Assembly: GCA_002371295.1 (NCBI GenBank) | Contig: DFGZ01000332.1 | Coordinates: forward strand, 1-7,218 | Direction of reading: 5' to 3' | Length of the DNA: 7,218 nucleotides | Source: Oribacterium sp. UBA3737 | GTDB taxonomy: Bacteria; Bacillota_A; Clostridia; Lachnospirales; Lachnospiraceae | In this document: positions 1-7,218 of the stretch, piece by piece | Layout: every line of letters starts with the position of its first letter | Numbering within the stretch: the stretch's first letter is position 1 | Notes under the pieces: model-generated | Seen by the model: the letters and a program-made list of their open reading frames with translations, nothing else | Database searches by the model: none | What the model was told of the DNA's origin: nothing | Made by a program: the position numbers and the translations under genes

Positions 1-1540
1 GGAAGCTCAGATCCGGAATTCCCACGGATCGGTAATCAAGCTGCCTGAGTGCCTGAGGCTGATGAAAAACCTTATGCTTCTTACGGAAGGCTATGATTTC
101 TTTTGTAAAATCAAAAAGCTCCTTATTCTTTTCCTGAAGGTGCCAGTCCATCCAGTTCAGTGTATTGTCATGACAATATGCATTATTATTTCCCTGTCTT
201 GTCTGACCGCACTCATCTCCTGAATTAATAAGCGGCGTTCCCTGGCTGAGCATAAGAAGAAGATAGGCATTTCTCCACATCTTTCTTCTGAGGGCCTTTA
301 CCGATTTCTTACGGCTCGGTCCCTCTTCACCGCAGTTCCAAGAATAATTCTGATTGGTTCCGTCGCGGTTGTCCTCATGATTGTCTTCGTTGTGCTTTCT
401 GTCGTATGAAAGGGCATCCATAAGACTCATGCCGGAGACATTGGCCATATACTGTATGTTGGCCCGGTCAGCCGGATTGTTCCTGATCCTGTTCATAAGC
501 GTTCCCAGCATGCTCTCGTCCCCCTTAAGAACACGGCGCATATCGTTCTGGAAACCATCATTGTAATCCGCCAGGTATCTCGGAGCATAATGTCTGTAGG
601 CACCACCGTACCGTTCTCCCTGCTGCATCTGCCCCTCCCAGCTGTCCGCCCAGATCTTAAACCTGCTCAGATAAGGATCTCTGGCGATAACGCTGTAGGG
701 TGCGGAGCCTATCATATGAATCCCGTCCACATGATAATTTATGCGCCAGTAACGCATGACTGTTGTGATATAGTCAGGCAGTGTCTCATAGGTAAAATAG
801 AGATCAATTATGACCTCTATTTTATTGCGATGCAGTTCGTATACTAATTTTCTGAATTCATTTCTTGGATTTTTGTGATCTGAGGTGAAACTTGATTTAG
901 GCGCCAGCTGCATGGCGTCCTTTGTGAATCCCCAGTAATTTATGCGTCCCGTTGGTCTAAGCTCTGTTTTATATGGATTCTGACTGCCGTAATCCGGGAG
1001 CATGACCTCATTGAATTCATAGGGAGGCATAAGCTCCACCGCAGTTATCCCAAGGGAAACAAGGTAAGGAATCTTCTCGATGATGCCCTGAAAGGTTCCT
1101 CTCACATCTTTATTCAGTCCGGAAGAACTATGGGCTGTAAAACCACGTACATGAAGACGATAAACTATGGTCTCGTCATAAGGTATATCCAGCGGTCTGT
1201 CTTTGAGCCACTCTGCACTCTCATCTGGCACAGCCACAGCCTCGGCCACCGGAGTCTTCAGAATTCTGGTTCCATCCTTCAGGAACCCAAACTTCTTTCT
1301 CCCTTCGAAAACCGTTCCGTTGGGATCCGTGAAGACCTGACCGTCTGCCTCATAGCAATAGCTGAACCGGGAGATATCCTCCGCCACTTCCAGCCTCCAG
1401 ACATCTCCTATTCTTTCATAGGGATCAAACGCTATCTGTCGTACTTTTTTATTACCTTCATACAGGTTCAGATACAGTTGTTCAGTATGAACAACTGCTT
1501 CAAAAATATATATATTATTCTCTTTCTTTAATCCAAACAT
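1..1540 (-). CDS. GlgX-like GH13 glycogen debranching family protein, catalytic residues lost (3' end outside window)
   Basis: Seen: a minus-strand frame open from ATG at 1540 to the window edge (513 codons; the C-terminus is missing, since GlgX proteins usually run to about 650-700 residues). A GGGGG-containing RBS lies 4-9 nt upstream. Residues 1-100 look like an N-terminal beta-sandwich (CBM48-type). The GH13 barrel follows: YRLHVRGFT near 127-135, AVELMPPYEFNE to 178, YWGF at 202-205. After that come GlgX hallmarks EDNRDGTN (389-396), NYSWNCG (398-404) and the stretch SQGTPLINSGDECGQTRQGN. Odd: all catalytic motifs are altered. Region I DxxxNH reads DLYFTY (T250, Y251). Region II HVDGFRFD reads HVDGIHMI, with Ile277 at the nucleophile. 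Region III AEAWD reads ADSWE (Asp299 for the acid Glu). Region IV TAHDG reads ANVSG (Val368, Ser369). The frame is intact, so this is not a decayed gene. Inference: a non-hydrolytic member that binds alpha-glucan or partners an active isoamylase. Family assignment is sure; function is not. Confidence 0.88.
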   Translation of the reverse strand, partial: MFGLKKENNIYIFEAVVHTEQLYLNLYEGNKKVRQIAFDPYERIGDVWRLEVAEDISRFSYCYEADGQVFTDPNGTVFEGRKKFGFLKDGTRILKTPVAEAVAVPDESAEWLKDRPLDIPYDETIVYRLHVRGFTAHSSSGLNKDVRGTFQGIIEKIPYLVSLGITAVELMPPYEFNEVMLPDYGSQNPYKTELRPTGRINYWGFTKDAMQLAPKSSFTSDHKNPRNEFRKLVYELHRNKIEVIIDLYFTYETLPDYITTVMRYWRINYHVDGIHMIGSAPYSVIARDPYLSRFKIWADSWEGQMQQGERYGGAYRHYAPRYLADYNDGFQNDMRRVLKGDESMLGTLMNRIRNNPADRANIQYMANVSGMSLMDALSYDRKHNEDNHEDNRDGTNQNYSWNCGEEGPSRKKSVKALRRKMWRNAYLLLMLSQGTPLINSGDECGQTRQGNNNAYCHDNTLNWMDWHLQEKNKELFDFTKEIIAFRKKHKVFHQPQALRQLDYRSVGIPDLSF

Positions 1541-1614
1541 TCTGCCCCCGTTTCAGTCTCCCAATGGTGCATCTGAGGGATAGGATAAATCAACTTTTGT
1601 ATATAGTTGGTTCA

Positions 1615-1623
1615 AGTATAACA
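1615..1623 (-). promoter_or_regulatory. Extended -10 promoter candidate for the GlgX-like gene
   Basis: On the minus strand this reads TGTTATACT, a TG-extended -10 box (TATACT, five of six matches to consensus). Transcription would start near 1608 and leave a leader of about 68 nt. No good -35 is present at the normal distance, where the exoA terminator lies. It sits directly between that terminator and the gene, the expected place. Prediction by eye only. Confidence 0.4.
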
Positions 1624-1632
1624 TAAATACAC

Positions 1633-1666
1633 AAAAACCGTTACATCCTATTGGGGATGCAACGGT
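1633..1666 (-). terminator. Rho-independent terminator of exoA
   Basis: Arms 1637-1648 (ACCGTTACATCC) and 1655-1666 (GGATGCAACGGT) form a 12-position stem with one A/C mismatch and a 6-nt loop. On the minus strand the stem is followed at once by TTTTT (1637-1633, the first T overlapping the stem). It lies about 80 nt past the exoA stop. There is no T-tract on the plus-strand side, so it acts in one direction and separates exoA from the GlgX-like gene. Confidence 0.8.
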
Positions 1667-1744
1667 CAAAAATGCTTAAATCAATATATTGGTTTTGCTG
1701 ATTATATAAAATTTATACAGTTTTATTTTCCTTTTTCCATAAAT

Positions 1745-2503
1745 TTACAGATCAATATCCAACTCTATAGGACAGTGGTCTGATCCAAATATCTCCTGAT
1801 GAATTCCGGCATCCTTTATCTTCTCCTTGATTTTCTCGGACACAACAAAGTAGTCTATACGCCAGCCCACATTTCTTTCTCTCGCCTTCATGCGATAGGA
1901 CCACCAGCTATACTCATCCTTTGCTTCAGGATAAAGCATACGGAAGCTGTCTACATATCCCGAATCCAGAAGTCTTGAAAACTTTGCACGCTCCTCATCC
2001 GTAAAGCCTGCATTGTGATGATTTGTGGAAGGATTTTTAATATCTATCTCCTCATGGGCCACATTGAGATCTCCGCAGTAGATAACTGGCTTTTTCTCAT
2101 TTAACCTGTTAATGTATTCTCTCCAGGCATCCTCCCACTCCATTCTGTACGGAAGTCTCTTGAGCTCACCCTGGGAATTCGGAACATATACCGTCAGAAC
2201 ATAATAATTTTCAAATTCAGCCGTGATGACTCTTCCCTCCTGATCATGCTCCTCTATCCCCATGCCGTAAGTTACATTTATGGGTTCTTCCTTAGTGAAC
2301 ATGGCAGTTCCGGAATATCCCTTCTTTACCGCATAGTTCCAGTACTGATGGTAACCCGGAAGCTCCAGTTCTATCTGTCCTTCCTGAAGTTTGGTCTCCT
2401 GAAGACAGAAAATATCCGCATCAAGATTCTGAAATTCCTCCATAAAGTTCTTGCCCATAACAGCTCTTAAGCCGTTAACGTTCCAGGAAATCATTTTTTT
2501 CAT
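1745..2503 (-). CDS. exoA: Exodeoxyribonuclease III / AP endonuclease (ExoA)
   Basis: This 252-residue protein matches the full length of Bacillus-type ExoA. It belongs to the endonuclease/exonuclease/phosphatase fold and cleaves DNA 5' of abasic sites with Mg2+, with 3'-5' exonuclease and 3'-phosphatase activity, in cytosolic base excision repair. All active-site residues are visible: Asn8 and Asn10 in SWNVNG, the metal ligand Glu36 in LQETK, Tyr106 in VYVPNS, Asp145 and Asn147 in GDLN, Asp217 in RIDYF, and Asp242-His243 in SDHCP. The DNA-contact stretch SWWSYR (199-204) is also present. The ATG at 2503 is preceded by GGAGAG at suitable spacing; Met4 is a less likely alternative start. The gene is divergent from the MATE gene, shares a compact promoter region with it, and is followed by its own terminator. 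No LexA-type box was seen. Nothing suggests loss of function. Confidence 0.96.
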   Translation of the reverse strand: MKKMISWNVNGLRAVMGKNFMEEFQNLDADIFCLQETKLQEGQIELELPGYHQYWNYAVKKGYSGTAMFTKEEPINVTYGMGIEEHDQEGRVITAEFENYYVLTVYVPNSQGELKRLPYRMEWEDAWREYINRLNEKKPVIYCGDLNVAHEEIDIKNPSTNHHNAGFTDEERAKFSRLLDSGYVDSFRMLYPEAKDEYSWWSYRMKARERNVGWRIDYFVVSEKIKEKIKDAGIHQEIFGSDHCPIELDIDL

Positions 2504-2595
2504 ATAAACTCTCCATTCCTCCGCCTTTTCAAAGCGAACTCTGTATCATTAAGAATCAGAGATTTTTACCTCTGTTCATCTATACTCATCATGAT

Positions 2596-2624
2596 ATTTT
2601 AGTATTTTACCATATAGTTTTGAA
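2596..2624 (-). promoter_or_regulatory. Promoter candidate for exoA
   Basis: Minus strand: -35 TTCAAA (2624-2619), a 17-nt spacer, and -10 TAAAAT (2601-2596), four and five of six matches to consensus. The start would fall near 2589, giving a leader of about 86 nt. It overlaps the MATE promoter on the other strand. Confidence 0.5.
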
Positions 2625-2634
2625 GTGTTACACT
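2606..2634 (+). promoter_or_regulatory. Promoter candidate for the MATE gene
   Basis: Plus strand: -35 TTTACC (2606-2611), a 17-nt spacer, and -10 TACACT (2629-2634) preceded by TG at the extended -10 position. The start would fall near 2641. It interleaves with the exoA promoter, so the two polymerases could not bind at once. Confidence 0.45.
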
Positions 2635-2666
2635 CACATCATGATATATCGTCAGGAGGCTTCAAA

Positions 2667-4037
2667 TTGGCATCAAAGGCTACAGATTTCTCAAACGGCT
2701 CTGTGATAAGAGCCATCATGATACAGACAGTACCTCTTCTGGTGGCTCAGATCATACAGCTTCTGTATAACATAGTTGACCGTATATACATCGGTCATCT
2801 CCCGGGAGCAAACGGTCTGGCCCTTACAGGTGTGGGAGTATGCTTTCCGCTCATCACCCTCATAACAGCCTTCACAGACTGGTTCGGCATAGGCGGTACA
2901 CCTCTCTTCTCCATAGCAAGAGGAGAAGGAAAGCATGAAAGGGCACTGAACATCATGTGCCAAAGCGCCTTTCTGCTTATCACCGTGTCTGTAAGCATTA
3001 CCATACTTACACTTATATTCATGAAGCCAATGCTTTATGCCCTGGGTGCCAGCGATGCCACTTACAGCTATGCCCACAATTATTTCACTGTTTACATACT
3101 GGGAACCGTATTTTTTATGACAGGCCACGGTCTTAATTACTACATAAGTGCACAAGGTTTTCCAAGAATCGGTATGATCACCACCGCAATAGGAGCATTA
3201 CTGAACATAGTCCTCGATCCCATATTTATGTTTGTTTTCGGATGGGGAGTTGTGGGGGCAGCCATCGCAACAGTTATTTCCCAGTCAATCAGTGCTTTCT
3301 GGGTCGTCAGATTCCTGTTTTCCGAAAAAGCTTTGTTCAGACTGGATATCGGGCGGATACGATTCGATAAAAGTATCGCCCGTGAGATAATCACCCTTGG
3401 CTTTGCCAATTTCCTCATGAAGTCCACCAATACCGTGACTCAGGCAGCCTGTAATATAACTCTCAGAAACTACGGCGGAGACCTCTATATAGGTGTGTTC
3501 ACAATCATCAATTCCCTGAGAGATTTCATCACACTTCCTGGAACAGCCATAACCCACGCATCACAGCCGGTGCTGGGTTTCAATTTCGGAGCGAGAAAGT
3601 ACAGCAGATTAAAAAGAGGTATCATTTTTGCATCAGCGGCAGCAAGCTCCTATGCTTCGGTGGTATGGATACTCATTCTCCTTTTCCCGGCTTTCTGTAT
3701 CCGCATTTTTTCCGGAGATCCCGAAACCATCCGTATAGGAACACATTGTCTTCGGCTTTATCTTCTGGCCTTTATATTCCAGATGGGACAGTTCTGCGGA
3801 CAATCAGTTTTCTCTGCTCTCGGACAGTCGAAGAAGGCCATTTTCTTCTCAACTCTCAGGAAGATCATCATTATCCTTCCGCTGACCCTGATACTTCCGC
3901 TTTACATGGGTGTCGACGGTGTCTTCGCTGCCGAGCCCATCTCCAACATAATAGGCGGCGTGGCAGCTTTCAGCACCATGCTGATAACAGTTTACCGTAG
4001 ACTTCCGAAGAATGATGGGGAAGAAGCTCATCTGTAA
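2667..4037 (+). CDS. MATE-family multidrug/metabolite efflux transporter (TTG start)
   Basis: This 456-residue inner-membrane protein has the usual MATE size and two six-helix halves; such pumps export cationic drugs or metabolites using a Na+ or H+ gradient. Visible family signatures are YNIVDRIYIGHLPG (34-47) at the end of helix 1, GGTPLFSIARGEG (76-88), ALLNIVLDPIFMF (177-189) in the first half, QPVLGFNFGARKYSRLKRG (300-318) opening the last part of the second half, and VFAAEPISN (419-427). The end is short and charged. Start choice: AGGAGG at 2654-2659 stands 7 nt before TTG 2667, and the family N-terminus (ATDFSNGSV) follows at once. An in-frame GTG at 2625 lies inside the predicted promoter and has no RBS. 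The gene is divergent from exoA and ends at a bidirectional terminator. No neighbour tells the substrate, and no regulator gene is adjacent. Family is certain; transport specificity is unknown. Confidence 0.94.
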   Translation: MASKATDFSNGSVIRAIMIQTVPLLVAQIIQLLYNIVDRIYIGHLPGANGLALTGVGVCFPLITLITAFTDWFGIGGTPLFSIARGEGKHERALNIMCQSAFLLITVSVSITILTLIFMKPMLYALGASDATYSYAHNYFTVYILGTVFFMTGHGLNYYISAQGFPRIGMITTAIGALLNIVLDPIFMFVFGWGVVGAAIATVISQSISAFWVVRFLFSEKALFRLDIGRIRFDKSIAREIITLGFANFLMKSTNTVTQAACNITLRNYGGDLYIGVFTIINSLRDFITLPGTAITHASQPVLGFNFGARKYSRLKRGIIFASAAASSYASVVWILILLFPAFCIRIFSGDPETIRIGTHCLRLYLLAFIFQMGQFCGQSVFSALGQSKKAIFFSTLRKIIIILPLTLILPLYMGVDGVFAAEPISNIIGGVAAFSTMLITVYRRLPKNDGEEAHL

Positions 4038-4038
4038 T

Positions 4039-4093
4039 AAAAAACAGCAAGCCGGCCCGGGGAAACCCTCCTGCGCCGGCTTGCTGTTTTTTT
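4039..4093. terminator. Bidirectional terminator between MATE and PHP genes
   Basis: Arms 4045-4056 (CAGCAAGCCGGC) and 4075-4086 (GCCGGCTTGCTG) pair perfectly over 12 bp around an 18-nt loop. Six A's lie on the left (4039-4044) and seven T's on the right (4087-4093), giving a U-tract in both directions. It begins right after the MATE stop codon and ends one base from the PHP stop codon, so one hairpin serves both convergent genes. Confidence 0.95.
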
Positions 4094-4094
4094 A

Positions 4095-4916
4095 TCATTC
4101 TATCCGTCCTTTGATTCCTGATTCTTTTAATGCCTTGAGAAATGTCTCTCTGTTAAGTCCCGCAATGAGCTCCTCTGGGAAGTGAACCTCCTCAAGAAGA
4201 ACTCTCGTCTTTTCGAAGTGACCAATGAGATTTGAGATATGCGCATCTGTAGCAATGGAAATCTTACATCCCTTCTCGGCACAGATCTCAAGAAGTTCTT
4301 TACAGCGGCTTCTGGTTATACTGTCTTCAACCTCACCACCAAAATCCAGGCTGTGTTCATTGACCTCCAAAAGCTTGTTGAGGCTCTTTGCAGCATCAAC
4401 AATTGCCCTGTAATCAACGTCCAGACCGGTCCTGCCAAGGTGTCCGAGGATGAATACCTTCTCATTGCTGAGAGCTTTTATGTACATATCTGTGAGCTGT
4501 GTTCTGGTAGCCCCTTTTGTAAATGCTTTTCCATGAACGCTGGCGATCACGTAATCCATTTTTCTGGTGACCAGCTCAAAGAGAGTTGTGGGCCTTATGG
4601 GGTCACCGACGATATTCCTGTCGATGTTGATGTCTTCTCCGAAAAGTCCTCCCTCCAGATTAACTATATCCGCTTCGCAGCCGCAGAGAAGTGTCACGCC
4701 CATCCATTCCTTTGGCCAGATAGTTGGCGCAGTGGAAAGGTACTGATAGTTTTTAAGGTCTTTATATTCAGGCCAGAGCATGTCTGAAAAATGATCTGTT
4801 GAGGCAAGGAGCTCCAATCCGTTTTCTGATGCCTCAATAACGTTTTCTTTTATAGTAGAGTATGCATGTCTGCTGTAAAAGGTATGTGTATGTGTGTCAC
4901 ATTTTATATCATACAT
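4095..4916 (-). CDS. PHP-domain metallophosphoesterase, YcdX-like
   Basis: The 273-residue protein is a full-length PHP (polymerase and histidinol phosphatase) domain of the YcdX type: a cytosolic trinuclear-metal hydrolase of phosphate esters. All nine ligands known for YcdX can be placed: His9 and His11 (THTHT), His17 (RHAYS), His42 (STDHFSD), Glu81 (GCEAD), His128 (SVHG), His159 (LGHLG), Asp224 and His226 (TDAHIS). An active enzyme is therefore likely. The natural substrate is unknown; histidinol-phosphatase activity is possible, but no his genes are near. The ATG at 4916 is chosen because GGAGG lies 6 nt upstream and the first metal motif follows within eight codons. The frame stays open to 5009, but that extension has no RBS next to its start and no family similarity. 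The gene is divergent from rlmI across a 328-bp spacer containing a hairpin whose loop matches codons 4-8 in antisense. Confidence 0.93.
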   Translation of the reverse strand: MYDIKCDTHTHTFYSRHAYSTIKENVIEASENGLELLASTDHFSDMLWPEYKDLKNYQYLSTAPTIWPKEWMGVTLLCGCEADIVNLEGGLFGEDINIDRNIVGDPIRPTTLFELVTRKMDYVIASVHGKAFTKGATRTQLTDMYIKALSNEKVFILGHLGRTGLDVDYRAIVDAAKSLNKLLEVNEHSLDFGGEVEDSITRSRCKELLEICAEKGCKISIATDAHISNLIGHFEKTRVLLEEVHFPEELIAGLNRETFLKALKESGIKGRIE

Positions 4917-5109
4917 GATGAACCTCCGGATAAAGAAACATATAACACAGGCAAAAAAAGCTGCCGAAAAAATTTCGCTATTCTTACCCGCTGCGTAAGT
5001 CCTGTACAAAACTGCTGTAAAAACACTTATTCATACAAGAGGGTAACAGCGAAAATACTGTATAAAATTTAGTTGCAATAATACCACATATGTAATAAAT
5101 TTCAAAAGC

Positions 5110-5142
5110 AAACACGATAAATAAAATGTGACAATCGTGTTT
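5110..5142. repeat. 9-bp inverted repeat with loop matching the PHP gene start
   Basis: AAACACGAT (5110-5118) and ATCGTGTTT (5134-5142) are perfect inverted repeats around a 15-nt spacer. Spacer bases 5121-5133 (ATAAAATGTGACA) are identical to codons 4-8 of the PHP gene, read on the minus strand at 4907-4895. In a minus-strand RNA the loop would therefore be complementary to that coding start over 13 nt. It could be an antisense or leader hairpin, or at the DNA level a protein-binding dyad with TGTGACA half-sites. The sequence facts are certain; the role is not. Confidence 0.5.
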
Positions 5143-5158
5143 AAACAGTAAGTATGAT
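5128..5158 (+). promoter_or_regulatory. Weak promoter candidate for rlmI
   Basis: GTGACA (5128-5133) and TATGAT (5153-5158) each match consensus at five of six positions, but the spacer is 19 nt, longer than optimal. The right arm of the inverted repeat lies in the spacer, so a protein bound there would block this promoter. An alternative, TTGCAA near 5073 with TAAATT 17 nt on, is about as plausible. Confidence 0.25.
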
Positions 5159-5175
5159 TGATTATGGAGCTGTAA

Positions 5176-5187
5176 GATGAACCTCCG
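5176..5187. repeat. Second copy of the 12-mer GATGAACCTCCG found at the PHP start
   Basis: GATGAACCTCCG occurs here and at 4917-4928, where its reverse complement is the PHP ribosome binding site. Similarity continues beyond it with small gaps: ATAA then CATAT follows in both copies. Here no start codon follows on the minus strand (TTA instead of ATG), so this copy does not open the PHP frame. Confidence 0.5.
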
Positions 5188-5191
5188 ATAA
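5177..5191 (+). other. Possible four-codon leader ORF (MNLR) upstream of rlmI
   Basis: ATG AAC CTC CGA TAA is preceded by GGAG (5166-5169) with 7-nt spacing, a better ribosome binding context than rlmI itself has. It ends 53 nt before the rlmI start. ORFs this short arise often by chance, so this is recorded only as a possible translated leader. Confidence 0.2.
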
Positions 5192-5244
5192 CATATCCTG
5201 AGGTGAAGCTTACATTTCCCGGCTTATAACAGAAAGAGAAAAAT

Positions 5245-6465
5245 ATGAGTGAATCACTGGTTTCAAAAGGTAAAATTATTCTGAAAAAAGGCGAAGGCCG
5301 TACCATCAAAGCCGGCGGAGCCTGGATCTATGATAATGAAATCGACAAGTATGAGGGAGAATATGAGAACGGAGACATAATAACTGTGTCTGATTTTGAT
5401 GGATTCTTCATGGGATACGGTTTTATAAATCATAATTCCAAAATAAGGGTCCGCATGCTTTCCAGATGGAGAAAAGATCCCATCGACAGGGAGTTCCTTC
5501 GTGAGAGAGTCAGGGAGGCCTGGGAATACCGTAAAACCGTAGTGGATACAAGTTCCTGCCGCATCATCTTCGGAGAGGCAGACTGGCTTCCGGGTCTTAC
5601 CGTTGACAAGTATGAGGACGTGCTGGTAGTTGAGTCTCTTGCCCTAGGAATCGATAAACTGAAGAACATGATACTTGAGGATCTCAGGGAAATCCTTAAG
5701 GAGGACGGCATCAGCATCAGAGGAATCTACGAGAGATCGGATGCGCCGGTAAGAAAGAAAGAGGGTATGGAGCAGTATAAGGGCTTCATAGGTCCTGAGT
5801 TCGATACCAATGTTCTCATAACAGAGAATGGTGTCAAGTACATGGTGGATGTTGTAAACGGACAGAAGACAGGCTTTTTCCTGGATCAGAAGTATAACCG
5901 TCTTTCCATACAGAAGCTTTGCAAAGGCAAGAAGGTACTGGACTGTTTCACACACATGGGAACATTTGCCCTCAATGCAGGTATAGCAGGAGCGGCATCC
6001 GTAGAAGGTCTTGACATTTCCGAGCTTGCAGTGCAGCAGGCCACTGCCAATGCTGAGAGGAACGGCCTCTCGGATACGGTTCATTTCCGTACGGCAGATG
6101 TGCTGGATGAGCTTCCGAAGCTCAACAAACAGGGCGAGAAATATGATGTGGTAATCCTTGATCCTCCCGCATTTACAAAATCAAGAGAGGCTACAAAGGC
6201 TGCCATCAGAGGTTACCGTGAGATAAACATGCAGGGCATAAAACTGGTGAAGGATGGCGGCTATCTTGCCACATGCAGCTGCAGCCATTTCATGACACCG
6301 GAGCTCTTCACAAAAACCATTGCAGAAGCTGCAAATTCTGTTCACCGTCGTCTCCGTCAGGTGGAGTACCGTACCCAGTGTTCGGATCACCCTATACTCT
6401 GGGCGAAAGACGAGAACAGCTATTATTTAAAATTCTATATCTTCCAGGTTTGTGACGAGAAGTAA
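5245..6465 (+). CDS. rlmI: RlmI-type class I SAM-dependent 23S rRNA methyltransferase
   Basis: The 406-residue protein has the two-part build of the RlmI/COG1092 family, whose E. coli member makes m5C1962 in 23S rRNA. Residues 1-73 form an N-terminal PUA RNA-binding domain (KGEGRTIKAGGAWIYDNEI at 15-33). A linker follows with EADWLPGLTVDKY (111-123), then a Rossmann methyltransferase domain: NGQKTGFFLDQKYNR (205-219), SAM motif I VLDCFTHMGTFALNA (231-245), acidic Asp258 in EGLDIS, the catalytic-loop motif DPPAFTKS (306-313) and the cysteine pair in CSCSH (344-348). DHP (381-383) near the end is also typical. All expected motifs are present, so it should be active on rRNA in the cytosol. An in-frame stop at 5227-5229 rules out a longer N-terminus. 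The RBS is weak. The gene is transcribed alone and ends at a bidirectional terminator shared with rpiB. The exact target base in this organism is inferred from homology. Confidence 0.93.
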   Translation: MSESLVSKGKIILKKGEGRTIKAGGAWIYDNEIDKYEGEYENGDIITVSDFDGFFMGYGFINHNSKIRVRMLSRWRKDPIDREFLRERVREAWEYRKTVVDTSSCRIIFGEADWLPGLTVDKYEDVLVVESLALGIDKLKNMILEDLREILKEDGISIRGIYERSDAPVRKKEGMEQYKGFIGPEFDTNVLITENGVKYMVDVVNGQKTGFFLDQKYNRLSIQKLCKGKKVLDCFTHMGTFALNAGIAGAASVEGLDISELAVQQATANAERNGLSDTVHFRTADVLDELPKLNKQGEKYDVVILDPPAFTKSREATKAAIRGYREINMQGIKLVKDGGYLATCSCSHFMTPELFTKTIAEAANSVHRRLRQVEYRTQCSDHPILWAKDENSYYLKFYIFQVCDEK

Positions 6466-6471
6466 TCAAAT

Positions 6472-6517
6472 AAAAGGTCCCGCAGTTTTCCAATTTGAAA
6501 TCTGCGGGACCTTTTTT
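6472..6517. terminator. Bidirectional terminator between rlmI and rpiB
   Basis: GGTCCCGCAG (6476-6485) and CTGCGGGACC (6502-6511) form a perfect 10-bp stem with a 16-nt loop. It is extended by AAAA (6472-6475) on the left and TTTTTT (6512-6517) on the right. It starts 6 nt past the rlmI stop and lies 12 nt past the rpiB stop, and serves both. Confidence 0.94.
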
Positions 6518-6529
6518 ATAAATCCTGTT

Positions 6530-6997
6530 TTATGCTTCTTCGGCAGCCTTAAGATGCTGTGTATCCTGAATTTCCATGATCATGTCAACACGATTTCCGT
6601 GACGTCCGCCCTCAAACTTCGCATTTATCCATGCATCAACGATCTGCTTTGCAGTCTCTATTCCTATAACTCTTGCACCGAAGCATATAACATTGGAATT
6701 GTTATGACGCTTGCTCATCTCTGCAGAATACGGCTCACTGCAGCAGCATGCACGCACACCATCCACCTTGTTGCAGGCAAGACTGATACCTACACCGGTT
6801 CCGCAGATTGCGATACCACCATCAACCTTTCCCTCTGCTACCATCTTACCTACACGATAGCCTGAAATCGGATAGTTAAAGCTGTCTGTTGAATTGGTTC
6901 CCACGTCAACAATCTCGATACCCTTTTCTTCAAGGTACTGCTTGATCTCATTCTTCATGTCTACTGCTGCATGATCATTTCCAATAACTAATTTCAT
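6530..6997 (-). CDS. rpiB: Ribose-5-phosphate isomerase B (RpiB/LacAB family)
   Basis: The 155-residue protein interconverts ribulose 5-phosphate and ribose 5-phosphate in the non-oxidative pentose phosphate pathway, as a cytosolic dimer. Visible active-site residues are Asp8-His9 in IGNDHAA, the catalytic base Cys65 and Thr67 in CGTGVGIS, His98 and Asn99 in RHNNSNV, and phosphate-binding Arg132 and Arg136 in GGRHGNR. The Cys65 motif and RHNN favour RpiB; an allose-6-phosphate isomerase (AlsB) or LacB role is possible, but no sugar transport genes are next to it. Start: two tandem ATGs occur at 7000 and 6997. AGGAG (7009-7005) is 7 nt from the second and 4 nt from the first, so 6997 is preferred. 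The frame extends to 7066 without family similarity. The C-terminal tail after about 140 is polar and slightly longer than in E. coli RpiB. The gene converges with rlmI. Confidence 0.95.
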   Translation of the reverse strand: MKLVIGNDHAAVDMKNEIKQYLEEKGIEIVDVGTNSTDSFNYPISGYRVGKMVAEGKVDGGIAICGTGVGISLACNKVDGVRACCCSEPYSAEMSKRHNNSNVICFGARVIGIETAKQIVDAWINAKFEGGRHGNRVDMIMEIQDTQHLKAAEEA

Positions 6998-7108
6998 CAT
7001 TCTTCTCCTATTATTGAATATTGAGAACCGCTTTTTCATCACTACAGGCGGTCTTTGCGCCAACAATTTGACAAAAAATTATCAGTGCCGTAAATGGTGG
7101 CTTTTCCG

Positions 7109-7134
7109 GATATTGTTAAATAATAATCAATATC
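7109..7134. repeat. A+T-rich inverted repeat upstream of rpiB
   Basis: GATATTG (7109-7115) and CAATATC (7128-7134) are perfect inverted repeats around 12 nt. The motif CAATATCA recurs at 7198-7205. If rpiB starts at the -10 box at 7152-7157, the dyad lies just downstream of the transcript start, where an operator could act. The base composition makes chance occurrence fairly likely. Confidence 0.3.
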
Positions 7135-7151
7135 ACTTCCATTTCGCATGA

Positions 7152-7160
7152 AGTATATCA
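7152..7160 (-). promoter_or_regulatory. Extended -10 promoter candidate for rpiB
   Basis: The minus strand reads TGATATACT, a TG-extended -10 (TATACT). No clear -35 is present. The start would fall near 7145 and leave a leader of about 148 nt that carries the A+T-rich dyad and only a weak 5-bp hairpin (7027-7031 with 7048-7052). The rest of 7001-7218 shows no gene. Confidence 0.35.
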
Positions 7161-7218
7161 CATTTTTTACAAAAGCGGGATAAACGTATTAAATGAACAA
7201 TATCAAAATATATCAATT

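Follow-up and report, generated by a model that had tools for sequence, protein, structure and literature searches.

Introduction

GlgX and isoamylase (CAZy family GH13_11; NCBIfam TIGR02100) are debranching enzymes whose active members carry an Asp-Glu-Asp triad in conserved regions II, III and IV, and a CBM48 domain is a feature of the family (PMC12510319). Plant ISA2 is a non-catalytic member of the family, which lost its catalytic residues, was kept by selection across a whole lineage and forms complexes with ISA1 (PMC12510319, PMC12892837); its purpose has been called unclear (PMC12510319). In active ISA1, glucan is bound by the cleft and by two surface sites, and in ISA2 a C-terminal segment binds glucose units (PMC12892837). 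Among bacteria, Streptomyces GlgX is under cyclic di-GMP control through named binding residues that E. coli GlgX and TreX lack (PMC9530166). Searches of open-licence PMC papers, including the available parts of PMC11046441, PMC4236520 and PMC10395257, revealed no description of a bacterial GlgX lacking catalytic function. Here we describe a protein of this kind, termed pseudo-GlgX, which is encoded on the reverse strand of a 7,218-nucleotide stretch of Oribacterium sp. UBA3737 (contig DFGZ01000332.1, positions 1 to 7,218; hereafter the window), together with its relatives in other genomes.

Catalytic Positions of the Window Protein

The triad of active GlgX and isoamylase was replaced in the window protein by Ile277, Asp299 and Ser369 (Table 1). 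An earlier note on this DNA had named Thr250-Tyr251, Ile277, Asp299 and Val368-Ser369 as substitutions, and the alignments and a residue check bore this out residue by residue. The matching columns of E. coli GlgX in MAFFT alignments held N265-H266, R334, D336, E371 and H442-D443; the closest relatives of the window protein agreed with it at these columns, and the controls, 37/37 GlgX from Lachnospiraceae genomes and 6/6 from other phyla, were canonical at all seven positions. A profile-profile alignment (hhalign) of 42 pseudo with 10 active sequences (probability 100) placed HVDGIHM opposite HVDGFRF, ADSWE opposite AE(A/P)WD and NVSG opposite (A/C)HDG. It contained no Asp substituting at the nucleophile position, and the place at which its gap opens puts Ile277 either on the nucleophile column or just past the gap. 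A catalytic Asp/Glu/Asp triad at shifted positions was ruled out by the same alignment. The family signatures that the note had called near-canonical, EDNRDGTN, NYSWNCG and GTPLINSGDECGQTRQGN, were located from residues 389, 398 and 434, respectively.

The frame begins with an ATG at 1540 and is free of stop codons over 513 codons, as the note had said; "intact" means here open as far as the window edge, which truncates the gene. Two full-length database homologues, one of which carries the name Oribacterium, are 666 amino acids long and differ from the window protein at 3 and 4 positions over the 513 residues, indicating a full length of about 666 residues. Pfam gave only a short alpha-amylase match to the window protein. 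The nearest NCBIfam family for the 513-residue piece was GlgX, TIGR02100, at 274.8 bits, below its cut-off of 640.9, and the best TIGR02100 segments of its relatives scored about 197–267 bits among the matches listed. Type I pullulanase (TIGR02104) was a weak profile match at 105 bits against a cut-off of 504.5, and catalytic residues are lost in pseudo-GlgX. The nearest PDB sequences were plant isoamylase 1, TreX and GlgX. By profile, the closest relatives of pseudo-GlgX are thus GlgX and isoamylase, which places it in the GH13_11 lineage.

Table 1. Features of pseudo-GlgX and its upstream neighbour in the window
Feature	Position	Strand	Basis or comparison
Pseudo-GlgX gene, codons 1-513 of ~666 (first ~3/4)	2..1540	-	3' end outside window; full-length homologues
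N-terminal beta-domain, residues 1-100, CBM48-like position	1241..1540	-	Model strands 3-70
Thr250-Tyr251 replacing region I Asn-His	788..793	-	MAFFT alignment, residue check
Shortened strand 3-to-strand 4 link	728..787	-	20-21 residues in 137/137; 65 in 37/37 active GlgX
Asp272 of VDG	725..727	-	Retained in 137/137 relatives
His275 replacing region II Arg	716..718	-	His in 77/137, Arg in 15/137 relatives
Ile277, nucleophile position	710..712	-	MAFFT, residue check, profile-profile alignment
Shortened region II-to-region III link	647..709	-	22-23 residues; 37 in 37/37 Lachnospiraceae GlgX, 35 in E. coli
Asp299, acid/base Glu position	644..646	-	MAFFT, residue check, profile-profile alignment
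Val368-Ser369 replacing region IV His-Asp (transition-state pair)	434..439	-	MAFFT, residue check, profile-profile alignment
Residues 370-466, retained block spanning strand 7 loop and strand 8 region	143..433	-	Strongly conserved in pseudo and active GlgX
Exodeoxyribonuclease III-type gene (presumably xth), upstream neighbour	1745..2503	-	Pfam Exo_endo_phos; neighbour in 35/137 relatives

Relatives and Origin of Pseudo-GlgX

Pseudo-GlgX extends well beyond a single organism. Scanning reference genomes yielded 27 loci, comprising 17 pseudo-GlgX (L001–L017), six canonical GlgX and four short distant matches that were left unread; with 120 sequences from further genomes, 137 pseudo-GlgX sequences were compared. 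The full triad was present in none of them (0/137): 93 had no triad residue, 40 had one and four had two. The nucleophile Asp was lost in 136/137, being kept only in L230, and the position was occupied by 17 residue types, so that catalytic-residue loss of the ISA2 type, nucleophile included, extends throughout the clade. Two database searches with 120 matches listed each (240 proteins) returned 235 proteins without any triad residue and five with one.

In all 137 relatives, the link from barrel strand 3 to strand 4 (regions I–II) was also shorter by about 44 residues, and that from region II to region III by about 14. The absence of the full triad from every sequence, together with two deletions of near-fixed length, indicates that the triad was not lost by chance, and the presence of such deletions in every member points to a single origin. 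In a quick-search tree of 76 chosen rows (52 of the 137 pseudo and 24 active sequences), one branch separated pseudo from active proteins with a Shimodaira–Hasegawa-like approximate likelihood ratio test (SH-aLRT) value of 100. Judged from these sequence comparisons, pseudo-GlgX appears to have been derived, most simply once, from a GlgX/isoamylase (GH13_11-type) debranching enzyme.

Predicted Structure and the Retained Block

The predicted fold consisted of an N-terminal beta domain, a (beta/alpha)8 barrel and a C-terminal beta domain, as in GH13_11. PDB fold matches were computed from the model of a homologue, P0002, and not from the cut window protein; they included plant ISA1/ISA2, and identity to solved ISA1 and GlgX was 27–30% over 521–547 aligned residues. 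All eight barrel strands could be assigned manually in the model, in which the third strand (242–249) is followed almost immediately by a helix (255–269). CBM48 (PF02922) was precomputed for six of the 120 homologues listed and was not found in P0002 itself.

Pseudo-GlgX shares the domain order and barrel of GlgX and isoamylase, as well as strong conservation of residues 370–466, but differs from them in lacking the triad, in its two active-site deletions and in falling below the TIGR02100 cut-off. Sixty-six positions were conserved in both the pseudo and the active sets, 35 of them within residues 370–466, where the motifs KHNE, NRDG, SWNCG, GDE and GNNN are found. Among the positions conserved at ≥92% in active GlgX, 35 dropped below 60% in the pseudo set and 20 more were deleted; 26 of the 35 lay at 245–332 or 368–369, which correspond to strands 3–6 and a point immediately after strand 7. 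A further 11 positions showed conservation chiefly among the pseudo sequences. Part of the pocket is thus dismantled and another part nearly unchanged, and the earlier suggestion that the scaffold was kept applies to the 370–466 block but not to the two deleted stretches.

Selection and Gene Integrity

The median ratio of nonsynonymous to synonymous substitution rates (dN/dS) of pseudo-GlgX was 0.043 (0.027–0.068) for nine pairs among 13 Oribacterium-type sequences, the nine being those of 78 possible pairs with dS between 0.1 and 1.6. The same procedure gave 0.053 for xth (17 pairs), 0.058 for glgB (13 pairs) and 0.075 for malQ (four pairs). Purifying selection on pseudo-GlgX in Oribacterium is about as strong as on the adjoining active enzymes. 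Single open frames began by position 60 of the 629-position family model in 136/137 relatives (the one exception, L192, is truncated by the end of its contig) and extended to position 560 or beyond in 137/137. Some matched stretches in the genome search described below were reported with one to three internal stop codons; these were not placed individually but are taken to lie past the gene ends, because stop-free single frames cover the family model.

The earlier note had argued for a retained new role rather than decay and had suggested testing for an orthologous clade with low dN/dS; conservation by selection as such a clade agrees with the single clade, the purifying selection in Oribacterium and the open frames. 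A decaying gene without function would fit the absence of the triad from every member read, but in 136/137 a single frame spans almost the whole family model, the carriers are numerous (see below) and dN/dS is low in Oribacterium; we give this explanation practically no credence. The decay reading was rejected on the low dN/dS and the intact frames.

Occurrence with Debranching Enzymes

Presence was scored by thresholds in 150 genomes (completeness not stated) drawn from the family of Oribacterium WCC10, Lachnospiraceae. Pseudo-GlgX was matched in 132 genomes, of which 121 were sequence-checked as the pseudo type and 11 were weak and unclassified, leaving 18 with none. Carriers thus numbered at least 121/150, against 45/150 with a GlgX-type enzyme, defined as at least 377 bits against TIGR02100; 25/150 passed the curated cut-off, and 30 of the 45 GlgX-type genomes were read and found canonical. 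Type I pullulanase exceeded its cut-off in 36/150. GDE_C was strong (≥170 bits) in 27/150 and above Pfam's low cut-off in 43/150.

The note had expected a true GlgX elsewhere in the genome. Assessed in the relatives' genomes, this holds for 41/121 carriers and fails for 80/121, in which no GlgX was detectable. Among the 12 nearest genomes, four had GlgX over cut-off, a fifth had an unclassified GlgX-like C-terminal fragment that does not cover the catalytic regions, and none (0/12) had type I pullulanase over cut-off. Within the debranching families covered (TIGR02100, TIGR02104 and PF06202), 58/121 carriers had neither GlgX, nor type I pullulanase over cut-off, nor strong GDE_C, a figure that would shrink if weak GDE_C matches were counted. 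GlgA was over cut-off in 146/150 genomes: 119/121 carriers, 11/11 unclassified and 16/18 non-carriers.

Gene Context

In the Oribacterium C9 locus, xth, pseudo-GlgX, glgB and malQ lie on one strand, with 10 bases from pseudo-GlgX to glgB (neighbours were named by reading of the sequences, except DUF5662 and TraX, which were assigned by Pfam). glgB was directly downstream in 10/12 of the nearest loci, and in L008 and L010 the contig stops immediately after pseudo-GlgX. At L141 (2827–9432), malQ, xth, pseudo-GlgX and glgB are arranged head to tail about 2 to 25 bases apart, which is the Oribacterium gene set in a different order.

Across the 137 loci, the commonest neighbours were a mixed cluster of ABC-type ATPases (64), DUF5662 (59), a uvrD-type helicase (44) and gltX (40), with xth (35), trpS (28) and TraX (28) following. 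In 49/137 loci (e.g., L014:9783–10307), the DUF5662 gene immediately followed pseudo-GlgX in the same orientation, at a spacing of -231 to 53 bases measured to the open frame and not to the start codon, which suggests co-transcription; no mention of DUF5662 was found among the open-licence PMC papers searched. A TraX-family gene was directly downstream in 28/137 (e.g., L015:9634–10317). These neighbours come and go along the tree, with 20 changes each for DUF5662 and TraX.

The remainder of the window (2625–7066) encodes ordinary neighbours by Pfam: a MATE transporter, a PHP-domain protein, an S-adenosylmethionine (SAM) methyltransferase with a PUA-like domain, and a LacAB/RpiB isomerase. GC-rich inverted repeats with T runs, at 4035–4095 between the convergent MATE and PHP genes and at 6470–6520 between the methyltransferase and rpiB, appear by eye to be ordinary bidirectional terminators.

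Possible Function

That pseudo-GlgX is a conserved pseudoenzyme, the dead-enzyme part taken alone, we hold with high confidence. On balance, it probably serves glycogen metabolism as an adaptor or subunit that binds alpha-glucan without hydrolysing it. The protein lacks the residues for GH13 double-displacement hydrolysis, and its retained strand 7–8 face and N- and C-terminal domains may still bind alpha-glucan chains, by which it could position or modulate active enzymes of glycogen metabolism. In Oribacterium, GlgB, encoded directly downstream, would be the first candidate partner. The heavy chains of amino acid transporters, rBAT and 4F2hc, belong to another GH13 branch than pseudo-GlgX. 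Their ectodomains nevertheless resemble the proposed role, being alpha-amylase-family relatives that act as a subunit (PMC8537225).

Several observations weigh against this reading. Single triad residues survive in some relatives (acid/base Glu in 16/137, transition-state Asp in 31/137 and nucleophile Asp in 1/137), and the model has a predicted local distance difference test score (pLDDT) below 50 at 379–405, part of the retained block. The occurrence of GlgA in 16/18 non-carriers implies that the pathway does not need pseudo-GlgX and that GlgA does not track it. glgB was near pseudo-GlgX in only 11/137 loci and absent from the fetched stretch of the other 126/137; the commonest neighbours are non-glycogen genes that vary along the tree, a pattern that makes a fixed glycogen operon less likely and would allow for a different role.

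Such a role, in which the barrel was neofunctionalised outside glycogen for a regulatory, nucleotide- or cell-envelope-related task, is suggested by the usual neighbours counted above, DUF5662, TraX, the uvrD-type helicase, gltX and the ABC-type ATPases. We regard it as doubtful, however, since those neighbours change often along the tree, the block common with active GlgX remains strongly conserved, and glgB and malQ adjoin pseudo-GlgX in Oribacterium and L141. The earlier note had pictured a bacterial counterpart of ISA2, and a dead relative kept by selection with an ISA1/ISA2-like fold was indeed found. The stricter form of that idea, in which pseudo-GlgX has no function except as subunit to an active GlgX from the same cell, has the precedent of plant ISA2 with ISA1 (PMC12510319, PMC12892837), as well as the fold match and the 41/121 carriers that also have GlgX. 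It is nevertheless unlikely: GlgX was undetectable in 80/121 carriers, in genomes whose completeness is not stated, and so cannot be an obligate partner. Furthermore, ISA2 has an extra N-terminal beta-sandwich (PMC12510319) that is not seen in pseudo-GlgX, where there is no space for an additional domain because the first residue of the model already aligns with residue 10–11 of GlgX structures, and the available part of PMC12510319 mentions no active-site deletions for ISA2. Pseudo-GlgX is a separate bacterial case.

It is very improbable that pseudo-GlgX is still an enzyme, using other catalytic residues in a remodelled pocket. The 58/121 carriers without the debranching types searched, when GlgA is present in 119/121, leave some debranching activity unaccounted for, but glucan hydrolases beyond those searched could debranch. 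The acidic Asp375 and Asp442-Glu443 show no or almost no variation and would be available for catalysis; they are equally conserved in active GlgX, however, and are thus ancestral, which counts against a new catalytic set, as does the diversity of residues at the nucleophile position.

Implications

A non-catalytic family member is a kind already known from plant ISA2 (PMC12510319); a bacterial form that is common across a family, carries distinct deletions and usually lacks an active paralogue did not turn up in the open-licence PMC papers searched. Enzyme labels on pseudo-GlgX genes, such as "glycogen debranching protein" (one) and "alpha-amylase" (several) among the homologues listed, are probably wrong about activity. 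Inventories of glgX in gut bacteria may include this family, e.g., that in PMC10395257, the available part of which counts two glgX homologues for Blautia obeum. If bacteria have their own equivalent of non-catalytic isoamylase, the purpose of a dead debranching enzyme becomes testable in simple cells. More tentatively, a GlgX lineage in Lachnospiraceae may have been converted once to a non-hydrolytic alpha-glucan-handling factor, now more frequent than the genuine debranching enzyme, that acts with the branching enzyme or other glycogen enzymes to set glycogen architecture or turnover, in which case many gut bacteria would run glycogen metabolism with no GlgX-type protein other than a dead debranching enzyme.
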